From Erigeron canadensis (lineage: Eukaryota; Streptophyta; Magnoliopsida; Asterales; Asteraceae): a stretch of DNA of 64,000 bases. A model generated the notes under the pieces. The model did not search any database. It was not told where the DNA came from and saw only the letters and a list, made by a program, of their open reading frames with translations. The position numbers were made by a program, and so were the translations under genes. Where the stretch lies: assembly GCF_010389155.1 (NCBI RefSeq), contig NC_057763.1, positions 3,004,475 to 3,068,474 of the forward strand, written 5' to 3'. This document shows, piece after piece, positions 32,265 to 64,000 of the stretch (the first letter of the stretch is position 1; each line of letters starts with the position of its first letter).

Positions 32265-35200
32265 ATGGAATCGATCGATCCTAATATTGTAACTCGATCT
32301 CCGGCGAAAGTTCCGTCATCATCTTCATCGAATTCGGTGGATTCAATCAATCCAACTAGATTTCCGGCCAAATCTCTATCAACATCAATATCCAATTCAG
32401 TTGATGAAAGAGAAATAATTTCGGAAGTAGAAAATTATGCAGATATTTCAAAGACATTTTTCGATAATTTTAATCTATTTTCTTCTTTATTTTAAATTTT
32501 ATCATGAATTTTTTTAAATTTATTAGGATTATTTATGAAGATTTTAACTAAAAGTATGTAGTAGAATCAAATATGATTATTCATGTTTCAAAGCACATGT
32601 GTTTGAGTAGTTTTAAGTTTAGGATCAAATTTGATTTTGTGCAGTATAACTGTATATGTTTGTGTGATTTCGTGTATTGAATCAAATATGATTTCGTAAA
32701 TTATCTGTTATATATAAAATTTTTTGTTCAGAATCATATTTGATTAATTATCTGTATGTGTAAAATCATATATGATTTTGTATGTACTTTCTGTAGATTT
32801 TTGTTTTGTAACTTTTATTAGTACAATCAAATATGATTTTGTATTGACGTTTTAGTTACGCGTGATGTTATTACTGTAATTATATTTGATTTTACACGTA
32901 GATTGTGAAAAACATATACAAAATAAGCTATTGAAAATCAAAAATGATTTTACACAAAATCATATATGATGTTGTTCAAGTTTTACGTTTTAAGGTATAA
33001 TTTTCTATCTAAGACTATCAGTGTAAAATCAAATATGATTTCGCATTGAATGCATTTATTTCTGACCTGTATATTCTAATACAGTTCCCGTGCTGAAAGA
33101 AATACCTAAAACAAATGTTACTCGAACATTCCAAACGCCGGATGGATCGCAGTTTTTTGTCCCAATAGTTGATTACAAAAGACAACCAGTGATAGGAAGA
33201 AACTATGGATCACTTGAAAGATGTCGTAAGATGTACCACGAGTATGCTTATTATTCTGGTTTTGAAATCAGAAAAGGGAGCCAGAAAACTAATATGTCGG
33301 GAATAGTAAGACAAAAGTACTATCTTTGTCATAGAGCTGGAGAAAGAAAGAAGGTTAACATAGATAGTTTAGAAAGAAATGAAAAACAAGTTAGAAAAAG
33401 CAGCATGGAATCCACTGGATGTAGAGCTAGAGTGAGATTTGACTTGGATTACTTGAACGAAACATACATAATAGCTGATTTCCATGCAATTCATAATCAT
33501 GAATTGGTTCCGCGAGAGTATAGACATCTATGCAAAACAGATAGACAACTAAAATATGCAGAGCAGCTATTTGTCTACAACGCCTCCATCTCAAATGTTG
33601 GACCAACAAAAGCTCATCAACTGTACAATAACTTGAAGGGAAGCTCGTTAAATGTAAACGACACAGTCGATGATTTCAGAAACTGGAAGAGGGACCTAAA
33701 TGTGTACATCAATGAAAGTGACGCTCAAATTTTAGTTAACAAAATGATGGAAATGAGAGAACATATCCCTGGTTTTGCATTTGAGTATAAGGTTGACAAC
33801 TCTGAATTGCACTCACTCTTTTGGGCCGATAATGTAGCAAGGCGTAACTATGAAGAATTCAGCGACATAATGTCCTTTGATGCAACGTATCGGACAAACA
33901 GGTATATTTTTTAGTTTTTAAATAGGTTTATTTGCATAGAACTCGTTTGCGTTGTCTCAAATTTATACCTTAATCATATATAAATTTTTCATAGTGTATG
34001 TTTAAAATCACTTTATTGTCTATATGTATAAAATCATATATCATTTTGTATAGTTTTTTACACCATATATGTAAAATCATAAATGATTTTAAATGGTTTT
34101 CCCATATGTATGAGTAAAATCATAAAATGTTTGTTCTTAAAATCAAATATGATTTTGCACATACAGTTAGAAAAACAGAATTCTGTATAATCTCTATACA
34201 TAATCAAATATGATTATGAACATAAAATTAAACAATAACAGATTACAAATTGAAATTGATTGTACATGAATATGGTTTTTGATAACAGGTACAACATGAT
34301 GTTTGTCCCTTTCACGGGAATAGACAACCATAACAAATGCGTAACCTTTGCTGCTGGGTTGATAAGAGATGAGAAGCAAGAAACATACACATGGCTTCTA
34401 AAATGTTTCATGGATAATTTCAAGAAAGAGCCAACAATGGTGGTAACAGATCAAGACAAAGCTATGGAGATTGGAATAAAAAATATATTTAAGACTGCAA
34501 AGCATAGGCTGTGCATGTGGCACATAACACAAAAACTGCCAACAAAGGTGACGTCTGTTATCAATCAAAAAGGATTGTATACTGTTTTTCTCAATTATGA
34601 TTTTTTCAGTGAATAATCAATTTTGATTTTATACAGATAAAAGAGGCAACTCCAAGTATAGAAGATGAAACTGAGAGAGACTTCAAGAGCAGGTTTGACA
34701 GTATAGTTTGGAATATTCACATGGAACCAAAAACTTTCGAGGAAAAATGGGAGAAGTTGATGATTGATTTTTCATTACAAAATGACAATTGGTTCAAGTA
34801 TATGTTTCAAATCAGATCAAAGTGGATACCAGCTTACTTCATTGACACTCCAATGTGTGGCCTGATGAGAACAACATCAAGGTCAGAAAGCGAGAATGCT
34901 TTTTTTTCTCATTTCACAAGATCAACGTCAAATCTGGTGAGTTTCATGAGTGGATTTGAATCAGCAATGATGAAACAAAGGTCAAAACAAGAAAAGTTAG
35001 ATGCTGAAACAATAAAGAAGACTCCAATATTGAACACAAAACTCAAAATAGAAATGCATGCTTCAAAACTGTACACAAAAACAATTTTTGAGATGATACA
35101 GAAGGAAATAGAAGCTGGTCTATATGATTGTTTAGTTGCCCAAATGACTGCTGAAGAAGAGTGTCAAATTTATATCATTAATGAGATGTTAAAGAGGAAA

Positions 35201-35941
35201 GTGAAAGAGACTGGACAAAATGTGATTCAGTATAACGTAAAGCTTTTATTTTATTAAATAAATGTTATGTTTAAATCAAATTTGATTCAACACTGAAATA
35301 ATTTTATGTCAATGAAGGTATTGCATAACCTTGTGGATGGTTCTGTTGTGTGTACCTGTAGACACTATCTCCGTTTAAGTCTACTTTGCCGACATTGTTT
35401 CAGTGTTTTGAAGAACAATAATATAGATGAAATACATGCACAATACATTATGAGGCGGTGGACAAAAGGCATCATACCACCTGATTTGAGATCAAGCAGA
35501 AACAGATTTGACAATGGAAATGTTGGTACTCAAAAGATGGTTGCTGAAGCAAGTTCAGTTTTTGAGGACTGCTTGCATCTTGTTGTGAACGATGATGAAA
35601 AACTTAAAGAGTTTCTTGAAAGAGTCAAATCGTTGAAGTTAGAAGTTGAGGCTGATATGGCAAACCAACCACCAAAGAAAAAAAATGAAGTGATATCAAG
35701 AATGATGGATGTTGAAAAACCAGATTTAAATGAAATAAAAAACCCTCCAGTTGGAGTGTATAAGGGATGTGGAACTGTTAACCGTATAATGGGCGGTAAG
35801 GAGAAAGGAATAAAAGAAGGCAATAAAAGAAAGAGAAAGTATACTACATGCGGAGATACGAATCACAACAGCAGGACATGTGGAAAAAAGAAACAAAAAT
35901 TCAATGAAAAAGTGAATACTGAAGGAGCTTCAAACAATTAG
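32265..35941 (+). CDS. FAR1-related sequence (FRS/FHY3-FAR1 family) protein
   Basis: Multi-exon gene. Supported exons are 33,085-33,901, 34,289-34,547, 34,637-35,236 and 35,318-35,941, all with GT-AG borders and matching phase. A Ser-rich first exon from ATG 32,265 is likely but its donor is unclear. Order of domains: FAR1 zinc-finger DNA-binding region (CRKMYHEYAYYSGFEIRKGS ... TGCRARVRF ... 'NHELVP'); MULE transposase core (SFDATYRTN, then VVTDQDKAM, CMWHITQKL); SWIM zinc finger (VVCTCRHYLRLSLLCRHCF); C-terminal basic tail with a zinc-knuckle-like CGDTNHNSRTC. FAR1-family proteins are transcription factors domesticated from Mutator-like transposases, acting in the nucleus; some close relatives remain transposases. 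No stop or frameshift lies within exons 2-5. Introns are packed with the AAAATCAWATATGATTTT palindrome, absent from the exons. Confidence 0.88.
32550..33060 (+). repeat. palindrome-motif block in FRS intron 1
   Basis: About nine copies of AAAATCAWATATGATTTT or near variants occupy the intron between the Ser-rich exon and the FAR1-domain exon. Most are followed by GT or GTA. This is the left edge of the motif domain: I see no such cluster further left in the window. Confidence 0.85.
33930..34260 (+). repeat. palindrome-motif block in FRS intron 2
   Basis: At least six copies (e.g. from 34,048, 34,073, 34,138, 34,202) lie in this 387-bp intron. The much shorter introns 3 and 4 (89 and 81 bp) carry one copy each, next to their acceptor or in mid-intron. 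Confidence 0.8.
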
Positions 35942-37447
35942 ACAAGTAATTTTTTTCTTTATGACAAATATTCTATTCTTGGATTATAGTTTTAGTTGGT
36001 TAATCAATTGTCTAGAGATTGTGTAATAAAATTTGGTTCTGAAATATGATCAATTTTGATTTCTTCCTTGATAAATTCAAATATGATTTAGAGAATGTTT
36101 CTTCATATGGACTTCTTTTAAATGTTTCTTTTTTTCTAATATTATTCTCAAAATCAAATATGATTTTGAATGCCTTTTTCGTACAGTATGCGTAAAATCA
36201 AATATGATTCTATGTTTTTTTCACACAGTATGCTTAAAATCATATATGATTTTCTATACCTTACTCACACAATACGTTTAAAATCAAATATGATTTTGTA
36301 TACCTTTCTTACATAAGACAAAATAGTAAGATGAGTAACAATCTATCTTTAAATAAAATCTATTTATGATTAATTTTGTTTTCTTCTTTGATAAATTCAA
36401 ATATGATTTAGAGAATGTTTCTTCATATGGACTTCTTTTAAATGTTTCTTTTTTCCTAATATTATTCTCAAAATCAAATATGATTTTGTATGCGTTTTTC
36501 ACATAGTATGAGTAAAATCAAATATGATTATGTGTATTTTTCTTACAGTATGCTTAAAATCATATATGATTTTCTATACCTTACTCACACAATACGCTTA
36601 AAATCAAATATGATTTTGTATACCTTACTCACACATGCTTCATTGAAAGATTCTACATAAGACAAAATATTAAGATGAGTAACAATCTATCTTTAAATAA
36701 AATCCAATTATGATTATTTTTGTTTTCTTTTTTGATAAATTCAAATATAATTTATAAAATGTTTTTTCATATGGACTTCTAAATGTTCCTTTTTTTCTAA
36801 TATTATTCTCAACATCAAATATGATTTTGTATGCGTTTTTCACACAGTATGAGTAAAATCAAATATGATTTTGTGTATTTTTCACACAGTATGCTTAAAA
36901 TCATATATGATTTTCTATACCTTACTCACACAATACGCTTAAAATCAAATATGATTTTGTATACCTTTCTTACACATGCTTCAATAGTATGCGTAAAATC
37001 AATATGATTTTTATATCTTTTTCACACAGTACGCATAAAATCAAATATGATTTTGTATATGTTTCTACTTATTGACTCCACTTGTATATTTCATTAAATA
37101 CTTTATTCTAAAAATCAAATATGATTTTGTATAGGTTTCTACCATGGACTCGACTTGTATATTTCATTAAATAATTTATTCTGAAAATCAAATATGATTC
37201 TGTGTATATTTTTCACACAGTATGCTTAAAATCATATATGATTTTCTATAACTTACGATTAAAATCAAATATGATTTTGTATACATTTCTAACACAATAT
37301 GTTTACAATCAAATATGATATTCATTGTTAACAACACATGCTTTATTGAAAGATTCTACATAAGAAAAAATATTAACATGAGCAAAAATTTATCTTTAAA
37401 TAAAACAACAGTTATAAAAAAATAATCATAAAGGTCTTCCTCCTGAT
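35942..37447 (+). repeat. dense palindrome array with 320-344-bp higher-order repeat
   Basis: About 25 copies of the near-palindrome follow the FRS stop codon, spaced mostly 35-80 bp. A larger unit beginning GATAAATTCAAATATGATT recurs at 36,070, 36,390 and 36,734 (periods 320 and 344), carrying TTCTTCATATGGACTTCT and four to five motif copies each. A further shorter unit (CGACTTGTATATTTCATTAA) appears twice near 37,080-37,180. No ORF of note. It lies between the convergent FRS and F-box genes. Confidence 0.9.
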
Positions 37448-38582
37448 TCAGTGAAAATCTACATGTTCAACTAACTCGTTATCAGATAATTCATTATCAA
37501 TGTAGTTAGGTGAAGAAACATCTACACCAATCAAATTTGATGGTAAAACAAATCCTTTGACTTCCAAACGAGACAGAGCCTGCAGATTTTGGTCATTTTA
37601 AACAAATCAAATTTGATTTCTAAAAATACATATAACAAAGAAAACAGATACAAACACGTACCGCATAACAAGAAACACCTATTCTGACATGTTTCACATG
37701 TTGTAGTTTTATTAGAAGCATTTTAAGCAACTCTTCTTCATCATGCTTACGAGCCATCGGAAAAAAACGTGGCAAAACATAACCTAATTCCGCTTCGAGT
37801 ATACAAGATACATCTTGTAACAATATCTTTGAGATCCACAAACTACCAATTATTTTTAATGATGATATAAAAGGAGCATTGATGGTAAGATAAGATCGAT
37901 CGTCTTCAACAATATAGCCATCTAAAACCAATTTCTTAACACTAGTGCAGCTAATATCAAGCAATTCACCAATACAAGAACGTAATGTCAAACTGTTTAA
38001 CAAAGGGCTTCCAAACATAATATTAGCAATCAAATTTTCATCTAGTTCTGAATTTTCAATAGTTAAATGCCTAAGGTTGTTCCATCTTATAGAAACAGTC
38101 GGATGAAGAAGACAGAAACCTAATTCAATATTTGTGAAATGTGAATTCAAATAAAATGATTGAACAGCGATCGAGAACTGATCTTCATCTTCCACATATC
38201 TCAGATACATTTTGAATTCTTTGACATTTTTACTAACAACAAACTCTATCCAACTATTGATATAAGAGACAAATCGATTATCAAAATTAGCATCTAATTC
38301 AAACTTATTTATATTTCCCAACTCATATTGATTTAGGGTTTTATCAATAGCAACATAAAAACTTAAAAACGGTTTATCACAAACTTCAAAAACATCAAAA
38401 CCATGAATAGGAGAAGTATAAAATGCAAAATCATCAAGAAAAAGACAAGGAACAGATTTCCAAAGGTGTTCCCATCTTTTAGAAAGAGTACCTGTTCGAA
38501 TTGAGAATTTAGTTTTATCCAAACGAGATAGAATTTGATCAGTAATTAAAGAATCAGGTAAGCAACTTAACCGATCTAACAT
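37448..38582 (-). CDS. F-box/LRR protein, 350 aa
   Basis: Two exons, 37,662-38,582 (307 codons) and 37,448-37,579 (44 codons including stop), joined by an 82-bp GT-AG intron in phase 0. The N-terminus RLSCLPDSLITDQILSRLD ... 'TGTLSKRWEHLWKSVP' is a plant F-box (residues 3-43), the Skp1-binding module of SCF ubiquitin ligases. It is followed by LRR-like repeats (NNLRHLTIENSELDE; SPLLNSLTLRSC; CTSVKKLVLDG; APFISSLKIIGSL). The C-terminal part (KMLLIKLQHVKHVRIG) resembles the region where FBD domains begin, but a full FBD is not present. No breaks, so probably functional as a substrate receptor; the substrate is unknown. Its intron also contains an AATCAAATTTGATTT palindrome variant, linking it to its FRS and Ulp1 neighbours. 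Confidence 0.88.
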
Positions 38583-38800
38583 TTCATAAAAATCAAATTT
38601 CTTAAAATAAATTTAGATCTGTCCGTATATGTGTGTGTGTGTGTGTAATTTCCTTTTTTATATTTTCTTTATCTTTTTGGATTCTATCATTTTTGTAGTT
38701 TTCCTAAAAAATAAAATATATCAAAAATACTAAAATAATCTTTAATTATAAAAAATATAAGTAATGAAAATAAAAAATGATTTAAACTAGTAGGAGATGG
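38583..38800. promoter_or_regulatory. F-box gene upstream region with (GT)n
   Basis: Upstream of the F-box ATG. It holds a GT dinucleotide run (about 38,630-38,646) and AT-rich DNA up to the hairpin array. No defined promoter element. Confidence 0.35.
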
Positions 38801-39826
38801 GTGCATACGGTACGCTTAGGGTTTATGGTTTGAAGTTGTAGGGTTAGCCTAACGGCTAACCCTACGACTTCAAACCCTAAACCCTAAGCTACAAAGTAAA
38901 ACCCGAGGGGAAAGTTACATTCTAAAAGCCTAGATGCTCAACCCTAAAATGCTAAAGGCTACAAGAAGGGGACGGGTGCATAAGGTACGCTTAGGGTTTA
39001 TGGTTTGAAGTTGTAGGGTTAGCCTAACGGCTAACCCTACGACTTCAAACCCTGAACCCTAAGCTACAAAGTAAAACCCGAGGGGAAAGTTACATTCTAA
39101 AAGCCTAAATGTTAAACCCTAAAATGCTAAAGGCTAAAAGAAGGGGACGGGTGCATACGGTACGCTTAGGGTTTAGGGTTTGAAGTTGTAGGGTTAGCCG
39201 TTGAAGTTGTAGGGTTAGCCTAACGGCTAACCCTACGACTTCAAACCCTAAACCCTAAGCTACAAAGTAAAACCCGAGGGGAAAGTTACATTCTAAACGG
39301 CTAACCCTACGACTTCAAACCCTAAACCCTAAGCTACAAAGTAAAACCCGAGGGGAGAGTTACATTCTAAAAGCCTAAATGCTCAACCCTAAAATGCTAA
39401 AGGCTACAAGAAGGGGACGGGTGCATACAGTACGCTTAGGGTTTATGGTTTGAAGTCGTAGGGTTAGCCGGCTAACCCTACGACTTCAAACCCTAAACCC
39501 TAAGCTACAAAGTAAAACCCGAGGGGAAAGTTACATTCTAAAAGCCTAAATGCTCAACCCTAAAATGCTAAAGGCTACAAGAGGGGGACGGGTGCATACG
39601 GTACGCTTAGGGTTTAGGGTTTGAAGTCGTAGGGTTAGCCTGGCTAACGGCTAACCCTACGACTTCAAACCCTAAACCCTAAGCTACAAAGTAAAATCCG
39701 AGGGGAAAGTTACATTCTAAAAACCTAAATGATGAACCCTAAAATGCTAAAGCCTACAAGAGGGGGACGGGTGCATACGGTACGCTTAAGGGTTTAGGGT
39801 TTGAAGTCGTATGCTTAGCCTAACGT
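38801..39826. repeat. tandem array of long hairpins with telomere-like units
   Basis: A unit beginning GTGCATACGGTACGCTTAGG starts at 38,801, 38,976, 39,151, 39,421, 39,592 and 39,771 (periods 175, 175, 270, 171, 179). The 270 unit contains an extra internal duplication. Each complete unit holds a near-perfect inverted repeat with arms of about 33 bp: CTTAGGGTTT, a TTTGAAGT segment and GTAGGGTTAGCC, then a TAAC loop, then the reverse complement ending AAACCCTAAACCCTAAG. The arms carry telomere-type TTTAGGG/CCCTAAA repeats. The remainder (GCTACAAAGTAAAACCCGAG, AAAGTTACATTCTAAAA) is highly conserved. No coding. Confidence 0.93.
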
Positions 39827-41430
39827 ATGTGAAATCAAAAAAAATGAGATCGATATCATTAATCGAGTCAAAACTAAAATAAGTTGCTTAAAAATATAAC
39901 CGTTTGAAGTATTATATGATTTTAAACATAGTGTGAATTATCCATGCAAAATCATATTTGAATTATCCATAAGAATGATTTTACGTATACATTGGGAAAA
40001 ACATATACAAAATCATATATGATTTTATTTGTATATATAGACAAAAAAAAATGAGTTCGATATCATTAATCGTATTGAAAATCAAATATGATTTTAGTCG
40101 TAATTAGTCAAGCAAGTATACAAAATCATATATAATTTTGTGTAGGACATTTAGCTAACTTCCATCTCATTCTTAAAAAGACAATAGGAAATCAAAAATA
40201 ATTTCATGCATCATTTAGGAAACCTATGCAAAATCAAAAATAATTTTACAGATACATTAGAGGAAAACTATAGAAACTCATATATGATTTTGTATATTAA
40301 CCGTTTGAAGTCATATAACATTTTAAACATAGTGTGAATTATCCATACAAAATCATATTTGATTTTATTCATACTTATACAAAATAATTTTTGAATTATC
40401 CATAAGAATGATTTTACTTATGGACGGAGGATAAGATATACAAAATCATATATGATTTTATTTATAAAAGAAGAAAAAAAAATGAGTTCGATAACATTAA
40501 TCCTATTCAAAATCATATATGATTTTAGTCGTAATTAGTCAACCAAGTATACAAAATCATATATTATTTTGTGTAGGACATTTAGGTAACTTCCATCTCA
40601 TTCATAAAAAGACAATAGGAAATCAAAAATGATTTTATGCATCATTTAGGAAACCTATGCAAAATCATAAATGATTTTACACATACATTAGAGGAAAACT
40701 ATAGAAACTCATTTATGATTTTGTATATTACATCGAGTCAAAACTAAAATAAGTTGCTTACAAACTTAACCGTTTGAAGTCATATAAAATTTTAAACATA
40801 GTGTGAATTATCCATACAAAATCATATTTGATTTTATTCATACTTATACAAAATCATTTTTGAATTATGCAAAAGAATGATTTTACTTATGGATGGGGGA
40901 TAAGATATACAAAATCATATATGATTTTATTTATAAATGAAGACAAAAAAAGAAAATGAGTTTGATAACATTAATCCTATTCAAAATCATATATGATTTT
41001 AGTCGTAATTAGTCAACGAAGTATACCAAATCAAATATTATTTTGTGTAGGAGATTTAAGTAAGTTCCATTTAATTCATAAAAATACAATACGAAATCAA
41101 AAATGATTTTATGCATCTTTTAGGAAACCTATGGAAAATCAAAAATGATTTTACACATACATTAGAGGAAAACTATAGAAACTCTATTTATATCAAAAAA
41201 TCAAAATCCACTATTTATATCAAAAATTATTTTGCAAAAAATTTGGAGAAAATCTATAGAAAATAATATAATAATATGTGAATCATGTTGGAGAAAAAAT
41301 GAATTTCATACAAATAAACCTATTTAAAATCAAAAATGATTTTAAACGTAATGTTTAAAAACGCATAAGGTATCATATATGATTTAATTTATAAATCTGT
41401 TGTGAATCATATATGATTTTACACATACGT
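39827..41430 (-). repeat. palindrome array with 400-470-bp higher-order repeat
   Basis: About 30 copies of the near-palindrome, here mostly in the reverse orientation (ACAAAATCATATATGATTTTA). A higher-order unit starting CGTTTGAAGT recurs at 39,901, 40,302 and 40,771, carrying AATTATCCATA, GAGTTCGATA(T/A)CATTAAT, GGACATTTAG and CATCATTTAGGAAACCTATG. The last phrase reappears near 63,923, so the same family borders the Ulp1-like gene on both sides. Confidence 0.88.
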
Positions 41431-41827: not shown

Positions 41828-42185
41828 GTATATTTTATATTTATTAATTCAATTTTTTTTTATATTTTTTTAATTTTATTTGATTTTTTTAGGGTTTTAG
41901 TTTATTTTTTTAGTTTTTTTTTAATTTTTAATTCTATGCTTACAGTCCACTGATTATGTAGTTAACTATGTGTACTGAATCATATTTGATTATGTATAGA
42001 GTTTTTAATGATATATGTTTTTTTAAATCTATGTGTAAAATCATATATGATTTTGTATATAGATTTGAGCTTTTTAACTTTGAGTGTACAATCAAATATC
42101 AATTTGTAATGAGGCTGTAGTTAGCTGTTTCCTTATGAATAGAATCATATTTGATTGTGTATATAGAATTTAGAGATATAGGTTC
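41828..42185 (+). repeat. palindrome-motif block, left of the nested insertion
   Basis: About four or five motif copies (AATCATATTTGATTATG, AAAATCATATATGATTTTG and variants), interspersed with TATATAGATTTGAG... text. The same text resumes at 59,645. The region is interrupted exactly at 42,181-42,185 (GGTTC) by the LTR element. Confidence 0.85.
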
Positions 42186-42825
42186 TGTGAATCCATCGAT
42201 AGCTACAGATCGCTCTCGAGATCGTCTATGATTATGTCGTGAGTGCGGAATCCTCACGAGATAACTAGTTTGATTAGTTAACGGGTATATCACTAATTAT
42301 CAAGTAAATAATCAGCCGTATGATGCTATATTCGTTTCTATAAGCTATAGAACGAACTTAGAGGTCTGGAGTACGTGTATGTCGAATATGATCACTTATT
42401 TTAGGGTATTCATTCGTATATATATGTTTCAGATCGAACTGGGCTTGCTGGGCTTTGTTCTTACGAACTTAGCTGCCCAACCCATGTAACGAAGTTAATC
42501 TTCGTTTGTACCAAACGAAGTTTATCTTCGTTTGCCTCTAACGAAGATATACCTTATCTTCGTTAGATGTAATACTTGGTTATATTCCTAAGTGTTTCAT
42601 TTTAAGAAATCCTAACACATATTATGTTTGTACTTGTATATCACACAACAAACATCATACATAACACATATATATAACACCAAAACATGTAATCGATCAT
42701 TACCAAAACATAAAGTCCATAATCTATCAATTACATATATAGATACGACATAAATTAACATAATGTCTTAATCTAAACGAAATATCAAATCTAAGTTACT
42801 GTTGTCACATCAACGTGCATCAACA
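42186..42825 (-). repeat. 3' LTR of the LARD-like element
   Basis: 640 bp, with TG...CA ends in element orientation. It includes several small hairpins made of ACGAAG/CTTCGT (e.g. TAACGAAGATATACC then TTATCTTCGTTA). Of the 640 bp only 42,466-42,825 has a counterpart at the other end. Confidence 0.8.
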
Positions 42826-42875
42826 AACTCCCCCTTGACAGCAGCACCTTCGATTTCTTAGTCTTCAAAATCTGA

Positions 42876-43981
42876 TCATTCATCAAACAACAATCTTTTG
42901 CTATTTGCATGAATATCTTCATGTAAGCAGAGTTGAAGTATCTTACGATATCTACTTTCTTCATGCTTCAAAAATGGCAAGAACGAACACTCTGTATCGT
43001 ATAACTTTCTCAGATCATTTCTTGAGAAGTTTACCAGCTGCATCGGATCATAAACTCTTCTCAACAAAATCTTCTTCTTTGAGTTTGCATACATCTTGGC
43101 TTCACCAGAATTTCGATCAATTTCCCAATTATCCATCTTGTCCAAGACATCTTGTGCCCATTTCTTGCCAGGGACCTTGATCATGCACTTAATATCATGT
43201 TGAACATACTCAACTGTTTTATCTGGCTTAACCACTCTTTTCTTCGATCTTGGCTCAATCTTAAACTGTGGTTTATCAGAATCTTTCATGTTCTTCCTCA
43301 ACCAGAAATCATTTCGAAGATTCTTACCAACAACATCAGCTAAACCATCATCGCTTGGATTGATAATCCAGTTATTTCGAAGCTCATGTAAATCTTCTTC
43401 ACACAAACTCCTGAAATGTCTCTCACACCATGCTAAGTACTGACAACCTTCTGGTCTTTTAAGCACAAACAGCTTCAGTTCATCATCATAAAACCAACTC
43501 CAGATGATTGTCTTGTACTTTGCAGCATCTTTGTCTGAGATATGAGTCCAATATAGATTTGGTTTCCATGTTTCCCTATGTACTATCCATTCATTAACTC
43601 TTTTCTCGGGAACATGTCGATCAACCATATGTAATGAATCATCATCTCTGAGAGGAACTGGAAAATCATTTGGATTGAATGGTCTTGTCACATTAATCTC
43701 ATAATCAGATGGAATCGATACATCACCATTCTTAGCATACACAACAAAATGTAGAACTTGAGTTAGGCTACTGAATGGAACTTGAAGCATTCTTTCCCAA
43801 ACATCTGATCTCTTCTGATTCAACACTCTACTCTCTTCAATCAATGGATCTTCAGGATTTGAGTCCCATACTTCATCAAACCCATAAGGCTTCTTGAATA
43901 TGTCTAGATTTGGTTCAGGAACAAATTCGCCTTCCTCGAGCTCATCACCATCAAAGAATAAATCTGTATAATCTGGATCAT
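42876..43981 (-). pseudogene. LARD-like element ORF, C-terminal exon
   Basis: Last exon of the element's only gene. A splice acceptor TTTAAATAG precedes 43,981 (minus strand), and the phase fits the donor CAG|GTTTCT after 44,168. It reads on from DDPDYTDLFFDG to a stop at 42,876. The part with PLRDDDSLHMVDRHVPEKRV, KRPEGCQYLAWCERHFRSL and 'KCMIKVPGKKWAQDVLDKM' matches no family I can name. From memory, such ORFs are common in Asteraceae genomes next to LTR elements. It sits at the 3' end of the element, just before the polypurine tract, where some plant elements carry an extra ('env-position') ORF. The exon itself has no breaks, but upstream exons do. Confidence 0.6.
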
Positions 43982-44167
43982 CTATTTAAATTTACACAAA
44001 TGAACACCAGAATAGAAAGAATAATCTTGATAATTATAATAAAGATGAAATGTACTTGTATAGAAATAAGATAAATTACATTTTCATTACACAAAATGTC
44101 ATAACTTATTACACACACTCAATTATACTACTATCTAAAAATCTTTATCATAGACAAAATTAGAAAC

Positions 44168-52271: not shown

Positions 52272-54680
52272 TGTAACACCCCGAGCTAGGGCTCGAAATA
52301 TTACGGAAATCATATAGCACAAGGAGGGATTATCGTAGGCAACTAAATGACATTAATGAATTCGGTGAATCCACAACAAGTCAAATATTCAAACAATGCA
52401 CAAGGAGCAAATGACCATCAAAGTTTACAAAAGAGAAATCTAGAGATGGCTATCGATCCTAAGCATTAATCCAAAAGTGGGCGTATGAATCCTTGATCCA
52501 TAAAGTCCATGCCCGAAACCAAAAGCTACACCAGATCATGCATCACATCCTTGAACCACCTGATTACCTGAAAAGTGTTCTACAAGTCAACACGAGGTTG
52601 GTGAGTTCGTAGTGGTGGCCCAAGATGAACCACCGACCATAACCACATATCATAAAAACAAGAACAATTATCACATACAAGTAGTCTTACACGTCATCCA
52701 ACCATTGCATCACTATATAACAAACGTATAAGAACAATCAATGCAATGTCAATGCCATGATGTGAATGATATGCATGCCAAACCAAAATACATATAATAT
52801 GTAGGGCCATTATGCCATCTATGCAACGATACTCACAGGTCATCACCATGACCATTGTGGCATCTCAAAAACGTCGGCGAATATACGTCTATAAACCCGG
52901 ATGACCAACACCAGTGTATACGTCTATACCTGGATGAACACATTTGTCTCAACAGACAACCAAATCATCTCAAGCAACCAACACAATGCAAGCACAACAA
53001 TCCATCAATCCAACATCCAATAACCAACAATATGATGAAACTATACATACATACACTTGAGAGGGCTTGCTTTCAAAGAGTCCTCGATGTTTGTATACAG
53101 GGTGTACCAGCGGCTAACCCTCCACATCTCAAACCTTTTGAACGCGAAGTCGACTTCCATGTATGTACATCTAATCTAAATATAACCTTTCTCAATACCA
53201 ACATACACAAAACATTTCAATGATTCATCCATCAATCTTCATTCAATCAACAAACAACTAATTCAAACAAATAAACACACAATGTACACTTTTCAGCCCG
53301 AATCTCAATAGAGTAGGGAGATACGAACTCACCTTGATTGGCAAAAGAGGCTAATATCGAATTAAGATGAGATTATAGGTGATTATAGTGCTCCACGCGT
53401 CCACAACCTAGTAATGTATACAAGACATGCATTATTCACCAAAGACGACTCTCTAACTAGGTTTTAGCTTTAGTTTATGGCTTTGAAAGACTTTCGGGAC
53501 CCAACATGGTCGTTAGGGAGGTCATGTAATAGTTTGTAACCAAAATGAAGTCGCCCCAAGGTCGCCTCATTCTCAAACATAAGTTATATGTTTATTTAGT
53601 TTATGTTAATGTCTTGAATTAGGTTCCAAAGAGGACACCCAACTTTAAACGACTCGTTTGTCATGTGTAGGGCACCAATAAGGTCATAAGAGTACATTCC
53701 GGAAAGGTCGGGACGATCCTAGGATGTTAGAACTAAAGCTAGGAAAAAGTTAAGTGATTTAAGCCCCCAACTGCGCCGCAACTTATCGCTGCGCCGCAGC
53801 TGAAAAACAGACTCGTGAAGCTGCGCAGCAGCTTAACTAGCTGCGCAGCAGCTGAAAAACAGAATTGCGAAGCTGCGCAGCAGCTTAACTAGCTGCGCAG
53901 CAGCTCACCCAGTTCAGCATCAGCAACCCATTTCGACCTAAACACACCAAAACTAACCCATAACTCATTTTTGACACCCAAAATCAATTTTGAAGCATCA
54001 AAACTCAATATGAAGCATAAATAAGCATGTTTACACATGAATAACCCAAACCCACTTCAAAATCTTTCTTCAAAACACCAAACTCAAGTTCAAATTCGGT
54101 TTAACCCATTACTAACCCTAGACAAACCCTAATTCGACTTTTGACCCGATTTGTGACCCGAAAATGTTTTGGCACAACTATAGATACATTTACTAACATG
54201 AAGTGAAGGTCATAGAGTAGAATTTACTTACCAAAAGCTTCACAAATCCTCAAACCCGAATTTTGATTCAAATGAGGTCATTTCTTACACTTTGGAACCC
54301 AAGTTTTTGATATGAAGTTAAAATGGTGATAAGATTTATTATTCTTGCATTAACTAAGCTTGAATTTCCATGAACTATGAATTAAATTAGAGAGAGAGAG
54401 TGAAAGGAGAGTGTGTTCTTGGGAGTAAAGAAGAGAGAGATAAGAAGAATAAGGGAAGGAAAGGATAAGGTGGGTGGGGGGTTGGGTTGACTAAGGTGGG
54501 TCATGGGTCAAGACTTTGATCCATGGGTTGACCCGTCAACATAACTAATTAGTTCAAAACCCACGACATTACATCTAGCACACCGTCAACCGGCTCATTG
54601 AGTATACAATTAGTCATTTAACTACTATAATTCATAACATGACACTTAAAGTCAACGGGTCAAAATTCATGGATGTTACA
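52272..54680 (-). repeat. Ty3 element 5' LTR (2,409 bp)
   Basis: Virtually identical to 44,365-46,774. It contains the promoter for the element in principle, but no TATA box was assigned with confidence. Confidence 0.95.
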
Positions 54681-56250
54681 TGCAGACCTCTTCAGGAACT
54701 TCTCCCCAGTTGATCAAAAAGGTTAAGGCGGCGCGAGTATCAGTGAGATCAGACTCCAAAGTGCGAACTCTAGTCTCCAAAAGATCAATACGACGACCAA
54801 GCGACGAATCGGAAGGAAGTCGGTAAGATAAGGAAGGAGCCACCAGAGGACGTAAAACTGGTGCTTGTGAAACAACAGGAGCAACAGTAGCAGTTGGTCT
54901 TGGAGGATCAGGCATTGCTACAGAAGAAGCTTCAACAACACGTCGACGCTGAATTATGGTATATTGAAGTTCAACACTCCCTTGCCTCTTCACCGGACTA
55001 CCTGAACTTGCTTTGTTCACCGGATCTTCCATATCTTCAAAAATCTCACGTAATTCAGAATCATGCTGAGCTGCAACATCAGGATCAATCTCAGCAGCAG
55101 CAGGAGTGAAGTTAGCTGAATCTGAAATAGCAGGAACAACATGACAAGTCTTGCTTCTACGCTCTCTATGGAACGCAACACCCTCTTGATCAAACGACTG
55201 ATGCGAATGATCGCTTCCAGAAGCAGCCGCGATATCATGAATCATCTTAGTTCGACGTTCAGCAGCAGCAGAATCATCTGTGCCTGTCGCATTTGTAGCA
55301 GCAGAACCGTCGGAAGTATCAACATCATCTCCATCATTTCCATCATCCGAACCAGCAGACTCATCCCTTGAATCATCATCAGAACTTTCAGAAGTACCAG
55401 AATCAGAACCGGCATCAACATCATCCACAAACATATCATTCTCAAGACGAGATCGATAGTTTGGATTAATCAGGTGACCAAAAAGTGGTGGATCATGGAG
55501 ACCAGCCACATTACTCGTATTAGCTTCAAGATCAGCAAAAAGACGCGAAGGCCAAGCATGAAGAACTTAGCGAGGATCTTGGTCATATACTAAGTCAGGA
55601 CAGAAATGTCTAACGATAGCCATCACAAAGCGAGGATACAAAAGAAATTGCTTTCTCCCCCTAGCATTAATCTGATCAATAAACTCTTGATAAAAGTATC
55701 AGGAGAAAGGATAAGGTCGATTATATACCAAAGCAACCATCTGCGATGCAATCTGAGCAGACAGTTGATCAAATCCAGCCTTGCTATTGCTCAAACATAC
55801 GAGCAATGCATATGCTAGATAACGCCATCGTCCCTGAAAACCACTTTTGTCAAAAGGAAGTTTGACCTGTCCAACAAATCCCATTCTCTGAAAGCAGCGA
55901 AGAAGAAGTTCAAACTCGTAAGTCATCTCGACGTCTTCCTCTTCTTCTACGTCTGGTTCTGCTCCTAGATGCAAAATAGTGTGGAGCGATTCAGCATTGA
56001 AATCAAAAGTTGTGCCTTCAACAGTAGCACGTACAAAACTCTGTCCTGCAACCATGACTTCATGAGCAATGGACCAGAAAGAATCAATATACTGCCTAAC
56101 CAGTCTCGGCGAATCACAAAAAGCAAAAGATAATCGCGAGCGAGCAATGTAGTTGAACATTTCATGAAAATGTTCGCAATTATGCTGATCGGGATCTAGA
56201 TTCAGTGCAAGATTATGCTTTTTCACAAACTGACGAGGAGCGAGAGCCAT
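54681..56250 (-). pseudogene. LARD-like element ORF, N-terminal part ('MALAPRQF' protein)
   Basis: Starts at ATG 56,250 (MALAPRQFVKKHN) after a leader. The first 183 codons encode a globular region (CEHFHEMFNYIARSRLSFAF; YIDSFWSIAHEV; RCFQRMGFVGQVKLPF; GRWRYLAYALLVCL). The frame then meets TGA (55,699-55,701) and, 44 codons on, TAA (55,567-55,569). It continues unbroken as an acidic Asp/Ser-rich low-complexity region and a coiled-coil-like end (LLETRVRTLESDLTDTRAAL) until the Ty3 insertion at 54,680. With the two downstream pieces the coding length is 956 codons in one frame. I recall closely similar proteins as abundant 'hypothetical proteins' in Asteraceae (Tanacetum type); their role is unknown. 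Two nonsense codons make this copy dead. Confidence 0.7.
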
Positions 56251-59200
56251 TTCTGCAAAACCAATCACAATATCGAAACAAATATAAATAATCACGATAA
56301 ATGGATTGCAGAATTGAAAAACCCTAATTTGAAAAACCCTAATCAATAATGTCGCAAAGTAAAACTGAACGAAAATAAACAATAAATTCGTTAAATATAC
56401 AGAACGAAGATAGAATCTAAATTCGTAAGCAATGACCAAACGAAAATAGATCTTAAGTTCGTAAGAACTAAACTTAAATTTTCACCTAACGAAGTTTAAG
56501 TTCGTAAGGTCTAAACTGTACATGCAAGTTCGTAAGTTATAACTTATCTTCTAAGTTCGTAACTTATAAACGAAGTCTAAGTTCGTTCCTTATCAACTAA
56601 GGTCTAAGTTCGTAAGGTATCATCTAAAGTTAACTTCGTTTCTACCCAAGTTAAATTCGTTCAATTCAAAATCTAAGTCCATGTTCACAGATCTAAATTC
56701 ATTTTGAACTAAAGTCTAAGTTCGTTTGCACAAGTCTAAATTCGTTTGAGTAAACCAGGTGAATGATTACAAGAATTTATAAATATAATCAAAACGAATC
56801 AAATCGAAGATACATGGAAAACCTAAATCGTTTTCGTGAATGAAAATAACATCAAACACTTACTTAGATCACAGTTTGCACAACGAATCAAGAAAACGAA
56901 TTAGAGTGAGAGAAAAGAAAAGAGTTTGGGTTTTAGGGTTTTGCTCGAAAATGAGAGTAATTTTCGTTTTATGAAGCAAAAACGAAGAGAAACCCCTTTA
57001 TATAGTGAAGTAACAATGGGCCAACAATGGGTCGGGCTAAACTTCACAAACGAAGTTAGCAAAACGAAGATAACCTTCGTTTGAACAAAAATAGTTTCGA
57101 ACGAAGATAATAGATATCTTCGTAAGAACAAATCAAAATCAGAAAATATTCCAGATTTCAGCAAGTGTCTGAAAAATTTTCAGATTTTTCATACAAGCAA
57201 TCTTCCAAAACACGATCCTTTATCATAATCTGTACATAGCAAAAACTCGTTAGAAAGCAACCTGTTCATGCCTTGTACTAAAAATGTGCTTATCACCCAA
57301 ATTCATAATCATAATGTAAATAGATAACCGAACATTATAATCTTGAATGAAAACCCATGGTTTAAACACTAACCATAAACAAACCTGAAACTAATCAATT
57401 TAAATATGAACCTCATTACCAATGACGATTATGACACCAAGAACTTCCTTTGATCATAGATATGCATGACGGCAAACCATCTTGAAACACTTAAGTCCCA
57501 CACTAGATGCCGTCTACAAAACTAACAAACAATGAACTAGCCAACAGAAATTCACTGAAGAACTTAGTAAAAAAAAAAAAAATCCAAAAGTATGTTATAA
57601 ATCACAGCATGAAATTCAAAAGAAACTAATATCAAATTTGATTATTTTCATTAAATACATGAATCATAAATAAATAACTATTCCAAAAACACAAACAAGT
57701 TCATGTATTCATCCTTCACATGCTCAAATCTGCATCACAAGTATTATCACTACACACCAAGGATCTTATCATCATGATATCATCCGTGTAAATAACAATG
57801 TAGTAACAGAAATCAGCACTCCAACTTTATCTTCTTAACCTGAACACTGCACACTTACCACAGAACTCATCAACGCATTGAGAACAAAAACAGTATAATG
57901 CAGAAAATTCAAGTTACAATCACACTCAATCAGGATTAACAAATATGAAATAACTAAAAATCTAACAAAAGATCAAGGGAGGTCATTTCTTGTCAAACCC
58001 TAAAATGTCACCACACAAATTTAAACAAACCCGATTAATAACTTGGTGACAGGTGAAAATTATGAGATTTCAAATAACTTTGACATTTCACATAACACTT
58101 GAAAAGATCATTTTCTAAACTTAAACAAATTAATGTCCATATTAGAAAATCTTCTTTGTAAACAATCCACACAACCTCATTAAAAATTCACATGAAGAAA
58201 TTCAGCAAAACATATACTCAGAATTTAAATAGGATCTCTTGTGCAATAAGAACTTATAAAAATACTATTTTGACTCAATTAAAAAGAAAAATAACACAGA
58301 ATATAAATTGCAGAGTAATAAACTAATCTAAATTCTAATTAACTAGACTTTATACATTATTCACATTATGCATGATTACTGCTGATTAGATCAGATTAGC
58401 ATGTTACATAAGCCTGCGGGTGAGAAATAATTCTCTTATTATAAGTTTTGAACCGTGACCCAACAGCGATTACCGGTATGTTTGTCCTCTTAAACACTCG
58501 GTACGTCCAGTTTCCTTTGAGTTATGACACTTTCGACATACCCTGGCCAAGGACAGTCACCATGTAACCCGAGTAGCCTAATATGCCATTTGAATAGTTT
58601 GCGAACTTATGTAACCCACATTCAGATATATTTTCGTAATCGATACAAGCACTAAGATAAAAAATATTCAATATATTCAAGAACATCCTTAACCAATCAT
58701 GAAACACTTTGTGGATAACTGAATTGAATTACTTTGTGATGTCACATATTTGCTTCTGCATTTCATGATTTACAAGGAACCCGTGATTTTCTATGAGATC
58801 CATGTAGCGAACTTTCTGACAACCTATCCCAAGTTGGAAGCTTTAGGTAGGCTAGGTATACAAAGATACCCCGAGGACATACTTGTCCGAATCTCAAAGA
58901 CCACATTAGCCCCTTAATTTGCATTCATTTGATTTGCATAACAATATCACATTTACTTTTATGCTCATGATTGGTAGAGGTTCTTGCCTATTCATTGAAC
59001 AAATCTTATAGTAATGCTAGATCTTTCACAAAATTTAAGGACTAGATCAATTCATTACTGAAAAACAAGCAATCTCAGCCATATATCTGAATATGTTTCC
59101 CGCAAGAACATTGTTTAATTTTAAGTTCAGATTGAAGGAAACCTTGATACTTTGTGTCTACCGATATATCCCAAATTATAATCGCTGAACTAATCAGTTA

Positions 59201-59279
59201 TATTACGATTAAGCAGGCTTAAAAGCTAAAGTATCGTCACTTCTCAAGTTCATGTAGCCTAACTACAGATCAGATGTTT
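56251..59279 (-). other. LARD-like element 5' leader, non-coding
   Basis: About 3 kb with no convincing ORF. The part nearest the gene (56,430-57,130) has many copies of AAGTTCGTAAG and ACGAAGTTA-like words on both strands. The rest is AT-rich. The junction at 59,279/59,280 is where LTR similarity stops abruptly, so part of the 5' LTR and the primer-binding site appear to be lost. Confidence 0.6.
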
Positions 59280-59639
59280 AACTTAGCTGCCCAGCCCATG
59301 TAACGAAGTTAATCTTCGTTTGTACCAAACGAAGTTTATCTTCGTTTTCCTCTAACGAAGATATACCTTATCTTCGTTAGATGTAATACTTGGTTATATT
59401 CCTAAGTGTTTCATCTTAAGAAATCCTAACACATATTATGTTTGTACTTGTATATCACACAACAAACATCATACATAACACATATATATAACACCAAAAC
59501 ATGTAATCGATCATTACCAAAACATAAAGTCCATAATCTATCAATTACATATATAGATACGACATAAATTAACATAATGTCTTAATCTAAACGACATATC
59601 AAATCTAAGTTGCTGTTGTCACATCAATGTGCATCAACA
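59280..59639 (-). repeat. truncated 5' LTR of the LARD-like element
   Basis: 360 bp, equal in length to 42,466-42,825 and differing at about six positions (roughly 98% identity). In element orientation it begins TGTTGATGCAC. The expected further 280 bp of LTR is absent. Confidence 0.8.
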
Positions 59640-59644
59640 GGTTC

Positions 59645-60069
59645 TTGTAACTGTATATTTAAAAACATATATGATATGGTATATAGATTTGAGTTTTGTA
59701 ACTTTGTTTATACAATCCAATATGCTTTTCTATTGAGGTTTTAGTTACCTGTGTCCTTATGCTTAGTATTATATTCAATTTTGTATATAGAATTTAGAGG
59801 TGTCTGTTTTTGTAACTCTATGTTTAAAATCATATATGATTTTGTATATAGATTTGAGTTTTTAACTTTATTTTTTAAAATCATATATAATTTTGTTTTT
59901 AGTTTCCAGTTACCTGTACCATTATACATAGAATCATATTTGATTACGTATTTAGATGTTAGAAGTATCTGTTTTGTATAGTTATTTATATGTCACTCAC
60001 ATTTGACAATTTATAATCTAAAATATCTTATACGGATTTTTATATACTGTAAATGATCTAAATCTCACA
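59645..60069 (+). repeat. palindrome-motif block, right of the nested insertion
   Basis: Motif copies resume here (AAAATCATATATGATTTTG near 59,826; AAAATCATATATAATTTTG near 59,878; AATCATATTTGATTA near 59,931), in the same orientation as 41,828-42,185. The phrase TATAGAATTTAGAG is present just left of the insertion and again here, so the block has its own local duplication. Confidence 0.8.
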
Positions 60070-60919
60070 ATGGCGGAACTTAAGTCAAGTAAAAAAGGAA
60101 ATTCAAGGGAGATTGTTCCATTGCCAGTTAAAGTTGCCAAGAAACAAAGAGTTAGTAAAGAGAAAGAAGAATAAAAGTGATAATCATAATACTTCAAAGA
60201 AGCAAATTGTAACTAAAGAGAAGAAGAAGAAAAATGATAATGAAAAACAATTGACAATAGCTAATCCAATTTCAAATCGTGTCGGTTCTAATCTACTGTC
60301 GATTAGAATGAGGACATCACCAAAACCTCTTGCAAAAATGATGTCATCACTGAGTTTATCTCAGAAGAAAATGGTTTCCGAGATGGGATTTGGAGGTTTG
60401 TTTGGCTTCTCAATAACCAAATTCAACCCAAAACTTGGTTATTACATTGTAAAATCTTTCAAAGAAACTGAGATGGTGATCAGGACAGCTAAAGGAGATA
60501 TTATATGTGACAGAGATGTTGTATATCACGTCCTTGGGCTTTCCACTTCTGAAGGTACTAGTTTGGATTCAAATGAGTATTCAGAAGAATTTGAAAAAGA
60601 ATGGTTTAAGCAATTTGCAGATGAAGGTGTAAAAGAAAAAGAAGTTAGAGCTTCTACCATTGCAGATTACATGAATTATCAAGAAGCTGACCACATGTTT
60701 AAAATGAACTTCCTGATGGTGTTTTACAACACAATGATAAAATGTGACAGCAGTGGTCGTCTTGATCGGAGTGTTCTGCGTTTTATAAACAGGGAAACAA
60801 AGGTAGAAAAAATTGATTGGTGTGGTGAGCTATTGAAAAGTTTGGGCTGTAGTAAAATCCATTGGAATGAACAAAATCTGTACACAAAACCATACGATGG
60901 ACCCTACACTTTTATATAT

Positions 60920-61200
60920 GTGAGTGCATTTTTATTCAGACTTAGTAAAGTTGATTGTTTAAATGTGCCATAAAAAATAATACTTGATTTTTCATAATTG
61001 TTTTCAAAATGTATGTGTAAAAATCATTTTTGATTTTGAATATGTTTCTTTGTAAAGAAATCATTTGTTTTTTATAAATTTAATATAGAAAATCATTTTT
61101 GATTTTCTATATGTTTTTCACATTGTAAGCTTAAAATCAAATTTGATTTTTAAATGTTTATGTGATTTATAAGAAATTCCTTTTTGTATTCCTTTTGTAG
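60920..61200 (+). repeat. palindrome motifs in Ulp1-gene introns
   Basis: Variants AAATCATTTTTGATTTT (about 61,020 and 61,090) and AAAATCAAATTTGATTTT (61,133) lie in this intron. Further copies are in the introns at about 61,425-61,500 and 62,925-63,070. None is in the exons. Confidence 0.8.
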
Positions 61201-62912
61201 TTGTTGTATGTTGATTCTACGAAAGCAGATTCTCAAGCGATCAGTGCAAAAAAACCAATTTTCAAGAATTGGACAAATGCTCTCATTGAAGCAAGAGGAA
61301 TTGAAGAAATGAAGAAAGGATCGTTTGGGACATTTCCAGTTGTGCAAATTACAAAAAGCAACAAAGAAGGAGATGAGAACTTGTTAGAAATGAATGAGAA
61401 GAAGGTAGTTTATTATTATTTGTTAAATCATATATGATTTTGGATTATCTATAAAATTTTGAATCTATGTTTTCCTATGTAAAATCATATTTGATTTTGT
61501 GTGAAGCACAATAATTTATCTAACATGTGATATGTGATGATTTAGGGTTATCTGGAGTTGATTGATAACAGTTTTAGTGTTCTAAGTGAGATGAAGGATT
61601 TTTTTAATGGTGACTTTTAACGATATATCAAAAGAGTTCGGCCATGATGATTTTTTTTTAGAGAGCCGAAAGAAGATGGCCGAACTTTTTTCACTGGATG
61701 AAAGGGTTGTTGATAGTTTGTTAAAAAAAAAGAGGTGGATGCAACTAATTTGATTGTTTCTGTGGTTGATTCGATAAATCTTCCAAATAACGATTATGAA
61801 AGTGCTGAAGAGGGTACAGATGAAGAAGGTGGTAATTGGCGTGACCTTCTTAATAGTAATGATAACAATGAGTTTGAAGATGTGTTAGTTTTGACAGATG
61901 GAGGTAATAATGAACAAATTGCTATTGAAAACCTCGAATTAGAAGTGTCAAAGACTGCTGGAGATTTTGTGGTAGAAGGAATGAAAGATAATGCATCAGA
62001 ATTGACAAAGGTTGATGTTAATGATACAGTTGAGTTGGTTGATGTGGAAGATGTAAATTTAAAAGAGACTGTGGAAATGAATCTTATTCTTGATGAAAAC
62101 TTAAATTTACAAGAGTCGGAAAATGTTGAAAATGTGGATGCTGAGTTGTTACTGGCATTGAAAACCTCTAACACTTTAGTGGACATCTAAACTGAGAATG
62201 CTGAATTGGTGGTTGATACTGAGAATGAAACTGCAATTTCAAGCCCAGCTATTATGCAGGCAGTTTTTGAAAAACGTACTTCAAAACCATCTGCTGCTTT
62301 GCTTTCTCCATTTGTGTTTACTCTCACACCTGCTAGAGATAAGCTAAAGAGATCAGAGGTTGTCTATGCAGTTGAAATGTTTTGTAATGATGAAGCAGAT
62401 GAAGTGTAAGTTTCATCTTTTGTTATTTCACTTATAGTTTTATATATTACAATAAATATTTTGCAGTCCTTAATTGTTGATTTTCAATTTATCTTTTTTG
62501 ATATTAGGGAAATGATTTTCACGTCAGACAAGTACTTTGGAGAGTTGATTGCCCTTCGTCTGAATATGCAAACTTTAAAACCAGGATCATATGTGGATGT
62601 TTCTGTAATTGATTGTTGGTCAGCTCTCTTGAACTTCCAAGAACAATCGAGAGGAAAAGTGGATGTTAGAAAAACTTTTCTCAACACTTCAATACTTGTA
62701 AGTTTTTTTCATAGTTTTCTAAAATTTCTATTTGCTTGTTCATTCAGTTTTTATCAATAGTATTGACATATTCTTTAAACAACCAGTCTGAAGAATTTTT
62801 TAGTGAAAAAAAGACGAAAACAGAGGAACAACTTTATGAGTTGTTTGACATCAATATGCGTACGTTCTTTGGAAAGAATGAAGATTTGAGTAATTTTCAA
62901 CAGTTTGATCTG

Positions 62913-63131
62913 GTATGTACAAAATCAATTTTGATTCTGTATAGGTTTCTTGATATCTAAATAATTTGGTTTTTAGAAATTTATGCATAAAATCATATAT
63001 GATTTTGTATAGGTTTTTGTGATATATATACAAAATCATATTTGATTTTGTATAGGTTATTGATATGAACTGCATTTGACTTTGTATGGTTCTTGATATT
63101 TGTTTTGCTTTTTATCTTCACTTGTAAACAG
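62913..63131 (+). repeat. palindrome motifs in Ulp1-gene intron before the His exon
   Basis: Three to four copies close together, including AAAATCATATATGATTTTG from about 62,990 and AAAATCATATTTGATTTTG from 63,024, each followed by TATAGGTT. Confidence 0.85.
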
Positions 63132-63751
63132 GTTTTCTTCCCCATGTGTCGTTCACAACACTTTTACTGTTTCGTATACGGCCTGAGGAAGAAACCAGAA
63201 TTAATTGTGCTTGACAACATCCATGCTGGCGACAATTTTGAAGCAAAATATAGCAATGTCAAAAATGTTGTTGTAAGTATTAATTATTTTTCATGTATTT
63301 TTATATTTATATATTTTTCAAGTGCTTGACAAGATTTTTCTTATTTTAAAAATTCTGTTATGCGTAGCATAACCAATTTTGTAGGTATTTGAATCACAAG
63401 AAACATCCAATGGCCGACAAGATTATTTCTCTCAAGTTAAAGCAAATGAAACTAAAATGGAATACAAAGAAAAATTTTATTGATTGTGGAATCTTTTTGA
63501 TGCGTCACATGGAATGTTTTGATGGTCAGAAGCCACAAAATTGGGATTGTTCAATTCCAAAAGAGTCTGAAGGTCAATCTGAAGAAATTTTCAATCTCAG
63601 AATAAGGTATAATAAAATGATTCAGGTACATCAAGCCAACAATCTTGCTTCAAGTAATATTCAAAGGGTTGAAGAATATGGAAAAAAAAGAGAGTGGAAA
63701 AAGATGGGAAAGGTTTTTGTTGCAATGCAAAAACAAAATGTTTCTAAATAG

Positions 63752-64000
63752 AAATTCAGACTTGGAAGTTTCAGTTGTTGATAGACTTGTGGAAACTTTG
63801 AATGGTGAATGTCTTGTAAACAGTTTGTAAGCTATTGAAAATTATGATTAATATTACTTATAGAGTTTGAAAATCATAAATAATTTTGTGTTCAAAATTC
63901 AGATAAATCAAAAATGATTTTATGTATCATTTAGGAAATCTATCAAAAATCAAAAATGATTTTGTATAGGTATCTCACAATGTATGCTTAAAATCATTTA
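63752..64000 (+). repeat. end of window: motif array continues
   Basis: Motif copies at about 63,870, 63,908, 63,945 and 63,990, with the phrase CATTTAGGAAATCTAT shared with the 39.9-41.2 kb array. An alternative frame at 63,645-63,830 may be further Ulp1-gene coding. The domain clearly extends past the window. Confidence 0.7.

Follow-up and report, generated by a model that had tools for sequence, protein, structure and literature searches.

The question raised by the DNA examined here, 64,000 nucleotides of Erigeron canadensis (NCBI RefSeq assembly GCF_010389155.1, contig NC_057763.1, positions 3,004,475 to 3,068,474 of the forward strand; the window), is why one short near-palindrome fills the introns and spacers of its right half and spares the exons. 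The motif-bearing domain is one large DNA transposon, a FAR1-type Mutator-like element (MULE). The motif arrays are predicted, with somewhat better than even confidence, to be binding sites for an element-encoded dimeric anti-silencing protein of the VANDAL/VANC type, most likely a Ulp1-like one.

The dyad motif and the transposon that carries it

In a preliminary description of the window 80-100 motif copies had been estimated by eye between 32.5 and 64 kb. After collapsing the strands, 83 distinct sites were found at 32-64 kb. With up to three mismatches to AAAATCAWATATGATTTT the window gave 154 strand matches, against a mean of 1.98 and a largest value of 6 in 100 shuffles. In the genome (426 Mb, 356 contigs) the exact motif was detected 1,016 times in forward and 1,053 times in reverse orientation, the reversed pattern only 5 and 7 times. 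A chance origin of the motif is rejected by the shuffle counts and by this control.

Sites are also present beyond the window. In extended coordinates, i.e. the window numbering carried on along the contig, the whole element has 201 motif sites, the last at 81,000-81,017, and none was found beyond, up to 96,000. The 30-kb domain described before is real, but it does not end at 64 kb, and 17.4 kb of it are a nested retrotransposon. The left flank (1-31,968) contains no match, in agreement with the earlier observation, and the element itself starts with 594 site-free bases (first match at 32,563). The reported absence from the nested transposons holds except for one match with three mismatches at 57,628.

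None of the 201 sites overlaps a predicted exon, as had been seen by eye, whereas about 62 would be expected under uniform scatter. For this comparison exons were estimated from open reading frames and homology, and they cover 9,889 of the 31,876 bases counted, which take in about 280 bases of the nested insert. The site at 34,613 lies inside a short intron with visible splice sites and is hence non-coding. For the looser core AATC-N6-GATT, 152 occurrences were found in the element, one of them in a predicted exon. The features of the window (positions, strand where assigned) are:

31969-64000, plus strand: FAR1-type Mutator-like transposon, interrupted by a retrotransposon and running beyond the window end; shared left end GAGATGTACTCACGTGAAAC
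32248-35938, plus strand: transposase gene with exons at about 32248-32492, 33066-33911, 34260-34544, 34637-35218 and 35297-35938
32563-33042: motif array in transposase intron 1
34030-34217: motif sites in transposase intron 2
34613-34630: single weak motif site in the short transposase intron 3
36073-37322: motif array in the spacer from the transposase to the F-box-type gene, 42-44-bp units within 320-341-bp units
37623-38612, minus strand: F-box/leucine-rich repeat (LRR)-type gene, Pfam LRR_At1g61320 (1.1e-10) and LRR_At5g56370 (1.8e-7)
38792-39821, plus strand: tandem array of about 171-175-bp units rich in telomere-like CCCTAAACCCTAA, motif-free
39948-41420: intergenic motif array
41976-42158: intergenic motif sites left of the nested insert
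42186-59639: nested long terminal repeat (LTR) retrotransposon insert with TG...CA ends, duplication GGTTC and one weak motif match
59661-59947: motif sites right of the nested insert
60062-63748, plus strand: Ulp1-like gene 1, with conserved N-terminal domain (60062-60940), acidic middle and C-terminal protease-like exons; no Pfam family reached the cut-off
60974-61498: motif sites in an intron of Ulp1-like gene 1
62921-63049: motif sites in an intron of Ulp1-like gene 1
63870-64000: beginning of the motif array 3' of Ulp1-like gene 1, which runs on past the window

The consensus is the 18-base dyad AAAATCA-WWWW-TGATTTT, in which the length of the core was fixed by the search pattern. Over the 201 sites the best-conserved letters are AATCA and TGATT, flanking a four-base AT spacer. 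Outside the core, four of five flanking pairs were complementary above the chance level of AT-rich DNA; the innermost pair was not. Only two of the five exceeded the expectation from the base make-up of their columns, and therefore there is little covariation in these pairs. Neighbouring sites are most commonly spaced at 42-44 bp (59 of the 172 spacings not exceeding 120 bp), and there are additional peaks at 61-70. Thus, motif copies were partly multiplied as 42-44-bp and larger tandem units and are not independent of each other.

The three different genes noted before (FAR1-like, F-box and Ulp1-like) are all cargo of one transposon. A genome search with 32,100-36,200, in which 40 of 425 candidates were scored and which is hence incomplete, revealed five full or nearly full copies besides the window (95-97% identity) and many pieces. 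In the comparison of 40 kb around each of these five, all began to match at about 31,969 at GAGATGTACTCACGTGAAAC, with one letter changed in the C8 copy and several first letters changed in C3b. The flanks differ between the window element and the five other copies. A common end combined with different flanks marks a mobile multi-copy unit, as required for a MULE. Across the site of the nested insert the C4 copy is collinear with the window element to 77,012 and the C1 copy to 69,127 (extended coordinates), each with its own gaps and inserts. The stretch at 77-81 kb appears to be part of the same element, judged from the motif and a third Ulp1-like gene and not from a second copy. No terminal inverted repeats (TIRs) were found for 31,940-32,140. 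The right terminus was not found either, the first right-end search being swamped by a neighbouring LTR. The target-site duplication of MULEs is about 9 bases long.

By its domains, the FAR1-like gene is the transposase of the element. Its joined exons 2-5 matched the Pfam families FAR1 (1.8e-12) and MULE (PF10551, 6.8e-26), and SWIM below the cut-off (0.12); the intron at 34545-34636 was read from the sequence. The nested insert has direct repeats at 42466-42825/59280-59639 and contains an inner Ty3-type element (Pfam) with LTRs at 44365-46775/52272-54681. At the insert site the sequence of the C4 copy is uninterrupted. The inner retrotransposon (44365-54681) is recent, with LTRs 99.9% alike; a second recent LTR retrotransposon lies at 81549-91458 (extended coordinates), its LTRs being 98.2-99.9% alike in pieces.

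Constraint on the dyad and its change between families

Comparison of the five other copies gave 326 differences in 11,108 core positions and 2,101 in 33,003 positions of the 30-base flanks, a ratio of 0.46 (0.38-0.56). At A/T positions the ratio is 0.59 (0.45-0.76). These intervals, bootstrapped over the sites for which aligned copies exist (136 of 201), are too narrow, because tandem duplication makes the sites non-independent; some ascertainment also remains, as the sites were picked in the window copy. A separate count put the divergence of the core at 2.9% and that of coding DNA at 2.7%, compared with 6.0% in 40-base flanks and 4.7% in farther non-coding DNA.

The motif was also compared with that of related elements in the same genome. 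A sister family is represented by the loci L030 and L031, which share 73-75% DNA identity with the transposase exons and 98% with each other over 7.3 kb. With up to three mismatches, each of them has 3 matches to the window motif and 17 to ACAATCAAAGTTGATTGT; in the window element the corresponding numbers are 201 and 6, and five of the latter six are common to both. In the sister dyad both half-sites are altered alike (TGATTTT to TGATTGT), and the centre AAGT is not self-complementary. The tandem unit of the sister family also measures 43 bp (TRF). In L030 AATC-N6-GATT occurs 23 times, compared with 0.34 expected, and once in predicted coding sequence. Genome-wide, 19 exact ACAATCAAAGTTGATTGT sites were found at nine loci and none for the reversed control; for each of the 19 a transposase match of 72-77% identity was present at a distance of 418-1,225 bp.

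For a third relative, L032 (67-71% DNA identity), AATC-N7-GATT was detected 9 times against 0.2 expected, with no occurrence in predicted coding sequence. It carries the 22-bp tandem unit AATCCCCATGGGACTGGCACAA, and its AATCTCTTAGTGATT is found 55 times in the genome, compared with one match for the reversed pattern. Hence, the frame AATC...GATT is retained in all three families, and the remaining letters, in one case also the spacing, change.

The arrays also survive where coding DNA, here the middle of the transposase, has been lost. In L033 (C1:4676000-4683000) the start of transposase exon 2 is joined to the end of the last exon, and 42 sites are present in 7 kb. Because of this fusion, L033 is read as an internal-deletion derivative that kept the motif arrays. 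Most of the exact motif places listed (100, all on C1) are in clusters.

Candidate readers of the motif

The slow evolution of the dyad, its avoidance of exons and the joint change of both halves agree with binding by a dimeric protein. Of the three explanations offered in the preliminary description this one is the best supported, by the dyad itself, the slow core and the matched half-site changes in the sister family. Since the motif changes along with the element family, its reader is probably encoded by the element. Three Ulp1-like genes are candidates. They lie at about 60.1-63.7, 69.1-72.5 and 76.1-79.5 kb (extended coordinates), all in plus orientation. In the N-terminal domain they are 41-55% identical to each other and in the C-terminal part 40-51%; for the N-terminal domain of gene 1 the figures are 55% to gene 2 and 41% to gene 3. 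Reading by eye, His, Asp and Cys seem to be retained in order in genes 1 and 3 and in the sister gene. Two relatives of the N-terminal domain, P0001 and P0002 (encoded on short contigs, source 'lgn'; 67% and 54% identity), have neither names nor Pfam matches. A PDB search with this domain gave nothing meaningful, and the structure predicted from three sequences was unusable (mean pLDDT 38.9).

We infer protein binding, the identity of the binder, dimerisation and anti-silencing from these patterns. An element-encoded dimeric protein, most likely one of the Ulp1-like proteins, would occupy the dyads in introns, spacers and gene ends. With the protein bound, silencing marks would be kept off or stripped, both at the element itself and at its deletion derivatives, and the host genome would be spared.

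Binding of the sites by the FAR1/MULE transposase, as subterminal or internal repeats needed for transposition, was the candidate favoured before. FAR1 is a DNA-binding domain, and motif and transposase co-vary by family. However, the left 594 bases are without a site while about 30 kb of interior are filled. Furthermore, between families with differing motifs the transposase exons are better conserved (57-83% amino acid identity between window and sister family) than the comparable Ulp1-like exons (25-50%). For these two reasons a Ulp1-like protein is preferred as reader over the transposase, which we regard as an unlikely one.

AT-rich dyads built of TGATT halves are broadly similar to the sites of host transcription factors. 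The dyad could be a site for a host factor that was enlisted as enhancer or chromatin boundary, the site being multiplied by tandem duplication, and the tandem units of 42-44 and 22 bp agree with this. One fixed factor, however, leaves the differing motifs of sister families in the same genome unexplained, and this origin is considered improbable.

Neutral expansion of AT-rich tandem repeats without any binder is disfavoured still more clearly and is given little credence. The arrays do grow as tandem repeats, and the contrast of the core with its own flanks is larger than that with distant non-coding DNA. Against this stand the core divergence of about half that of the flanks, the lack of sites in predicted exons and arrays that outlast the loss of coding DNA in L033. 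The two other ideas of the preliminary description are hardly credible: a self-spreading mini-palindrome inserting independently would account for a short palindrome in many copies, but not for an empty 32-kb left flank, a single match in the insert and many copies within tandem units with shared flanks, the copies at the loci examined standing in element-derived arrays. Similarly, an RNA hairpin acting in introns would suit the near-palindromes of the transposase introns, but the arrays are intergenic as well, and 147 one-armed arm changes stand against 2 compensated ones (3.5 expected by chance; double changes are restricted by the three-mismatch limit).

Several observations weigh against element-encoded Ulp1-like readers of constrained sites, in addition to the too narrow intervals given above. 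The contrast is weaker when the core (316/10,928, 2.9%) is compared with non-coding DNA more than 40 bases from sites (1,033/21,858, 4.7%), and at A/T positions only it is 2.4% versus 3.1%. The Ulp1 assignment of the three cargo genes is weak. For gene 3 Peptidase_C48 (Pfam C48) scored E 0.025 and 14.9 bits, below the cut-off of 20.7; no Pfam match to this family was obtained for gene 1 or the sister gene, nor for gene 2, scanned as unjoined exon pieces. A PDB profile search with four sequences returned only two SENP7 chains (E 0.09-0.12). In gene 2 (extended 71511-72524; L007:1511-2524) Ser replaces the expected catalytic Cys and the His is lost; this gene is probably a non-catalytic paralogue. 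No match to DUF1985 was detected in nine exon pieces scanned singly (E up to 10, HMMER filters on), and the transposase is of the FAR1 type, unlike that of VANDAL elements. The N-terminal domain was not found in the 8-kb stretches of L030 and L031, where the gene nears the stretch end.

The genomic distribution also gives points of this kind. Two transposase matches of similar divergence, one at C1 4.56 Mb (the L032 locus) and one at C9 37.84 Mb, have 19 of the 55 AATCTCTTAGTGATT matches no more than 20 kb away; four further clusters account for 26, and 10 stand alone. Among the 100 exact places of the window motif listed, the full copy at C1 7.29 Mb accounts for 44, and the other 56 lie outside it. 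At one such outside place, covered by the overlapping stretches L002-L004, similarity to the arrays was seen, but no protein of the element was found within 3 kb. The absence of a listed transposase near a cluster is weak evidence, because the list of transposase matches is incomplete.

The remaining cargo gene is named F-box/LRR-type after its LRR families; the F-box domain itself gave no Pfam score in it. It was found antisense in all six copies compared, with a ratio of non-synonymous to synonymous differences (pN/pS) of 0.45 and with stops or indels in some. It is perhaps a captured host gene serving the element. In 12 exon sets, with three to six copies each and approximate exon limits, the pairwise pN/pS was 0.15-0.67 for 11 and 1.23 for one, the acidic middle of Ulp1-like gene 2. 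The stops and indels in several copies indicate decay. Stretches like the telomere-like array at 38792-39821 were also found in L005 and L033. In the left part of the window, 1.2 kb at 17387-18614 match their own reverse complement at 88.6%. An HSP70 piece (23844-24431, 3.2e-76) and an armadillo-repeat open reading frame (29211-30161), whose first residues match HSP70 (1.2e-4), lie on the minus strand and look like a chimeric gene.

Relation to known systems and meaning

The preliminary description knew of no described family of this kind. The kind of system is already known, as the VANDAL elements of Arabidopsis share the architecture (PMC5735166, PMC10398659). In VANDAL21 the introns, spacers and ends hold tandem repeats of YAGTATTAY, which VANC21 binds, causing methylation to be lost; VANC6 uses motifs other than those of VANC21, and VANC is far less conserved than the VANDAL transposase (PMC5735166). 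RNA-directed DNA methylation and VANC both target non-coding regions, and the TIRs of VANDAL elements are degenerate (PMC10398659). For VANDALs carrying Ulp1, a review reports recognition of motifs in the non-coding regions of their own group (PMC13317346).

VANDAL21 and VANDAL6 resemble the window element in several respects. They are Mutator-like with several genes and have degenerate TIRs, where none were found here. A short motif is repeated in introns, spacers and ends but not in exons, related families have different motifs, and the transposase is more conserved than the partner gene; the window element shares these features. In contrast, the motif is an 18-base dyad here and a 9-base YAGTATTAY or 8-base AGTTGTCC/AGTTGTAC there. 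The window element also differs by its FAR1-domain transposase, three Ulp1-like genes, F-box/LRR-type gene and size of about 30 kb. Anti-silencing is inferred here, and the element is not filed as VANDAL because DUF1985 was not matched.

Kaonashi and the KIU-carrying VANDALs are likewise reported to be non-TIR MULEs with a Ulp1-type gene and group-recognised non-coding motifs (PMC13317346, PMC2528002). The Ulp gene of KI-MULEs is reversed to mudrA (PMC2528002); relative to the transposase, the Ulp1-like genes are direct in the window element and reversed in the sister family. The Ulp1 match is below the cut-off here. Jittery and the FAR1-FHY3 MULEs share the FAR1-type N-terminus, the MULE core and a SWIM-like C terminus (sub-threshold here), but neither a Ulp1 partner nor motif arrays are mentioned for the FAR1-FHY3 group in the part of the source available (PMC2528002).

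The strings ATCATATATGATT and AATCATATATGAT were not found in the literature searched. Within this literature the motif, the FAR1-type host element, the half-site frame across three families, the set of three Ulp1-like genes with F-box-type cargo and the array-rich deletion derivative are new; part of this may be in print. Tentatively, and as a possibility that we rate well below even, FAR1-type MULEs may have evolved their own sequence-specific counter-silencing lock and key, apart from that of VANDAL elements. A dimeric reader would keep the outer AATC...GATT contacts, the neighbouring letters would be re-coded in both halves at once, and centre and spacing would drift, giving each family a private address; the F-box cargo would be a second counter-defence gene.

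If the prediction of an element-encoded anti-silencing reader is true, sequence-specific anti-silencing extends beyond VANDAL-type elements. The three related families in one genome would then form a natural series, with constant outer contacts and the rest varying, and how such proteins switch their target would become directly testable by swaps of protein and site. The arrays would be compact addresses for protein-guided demethylation.

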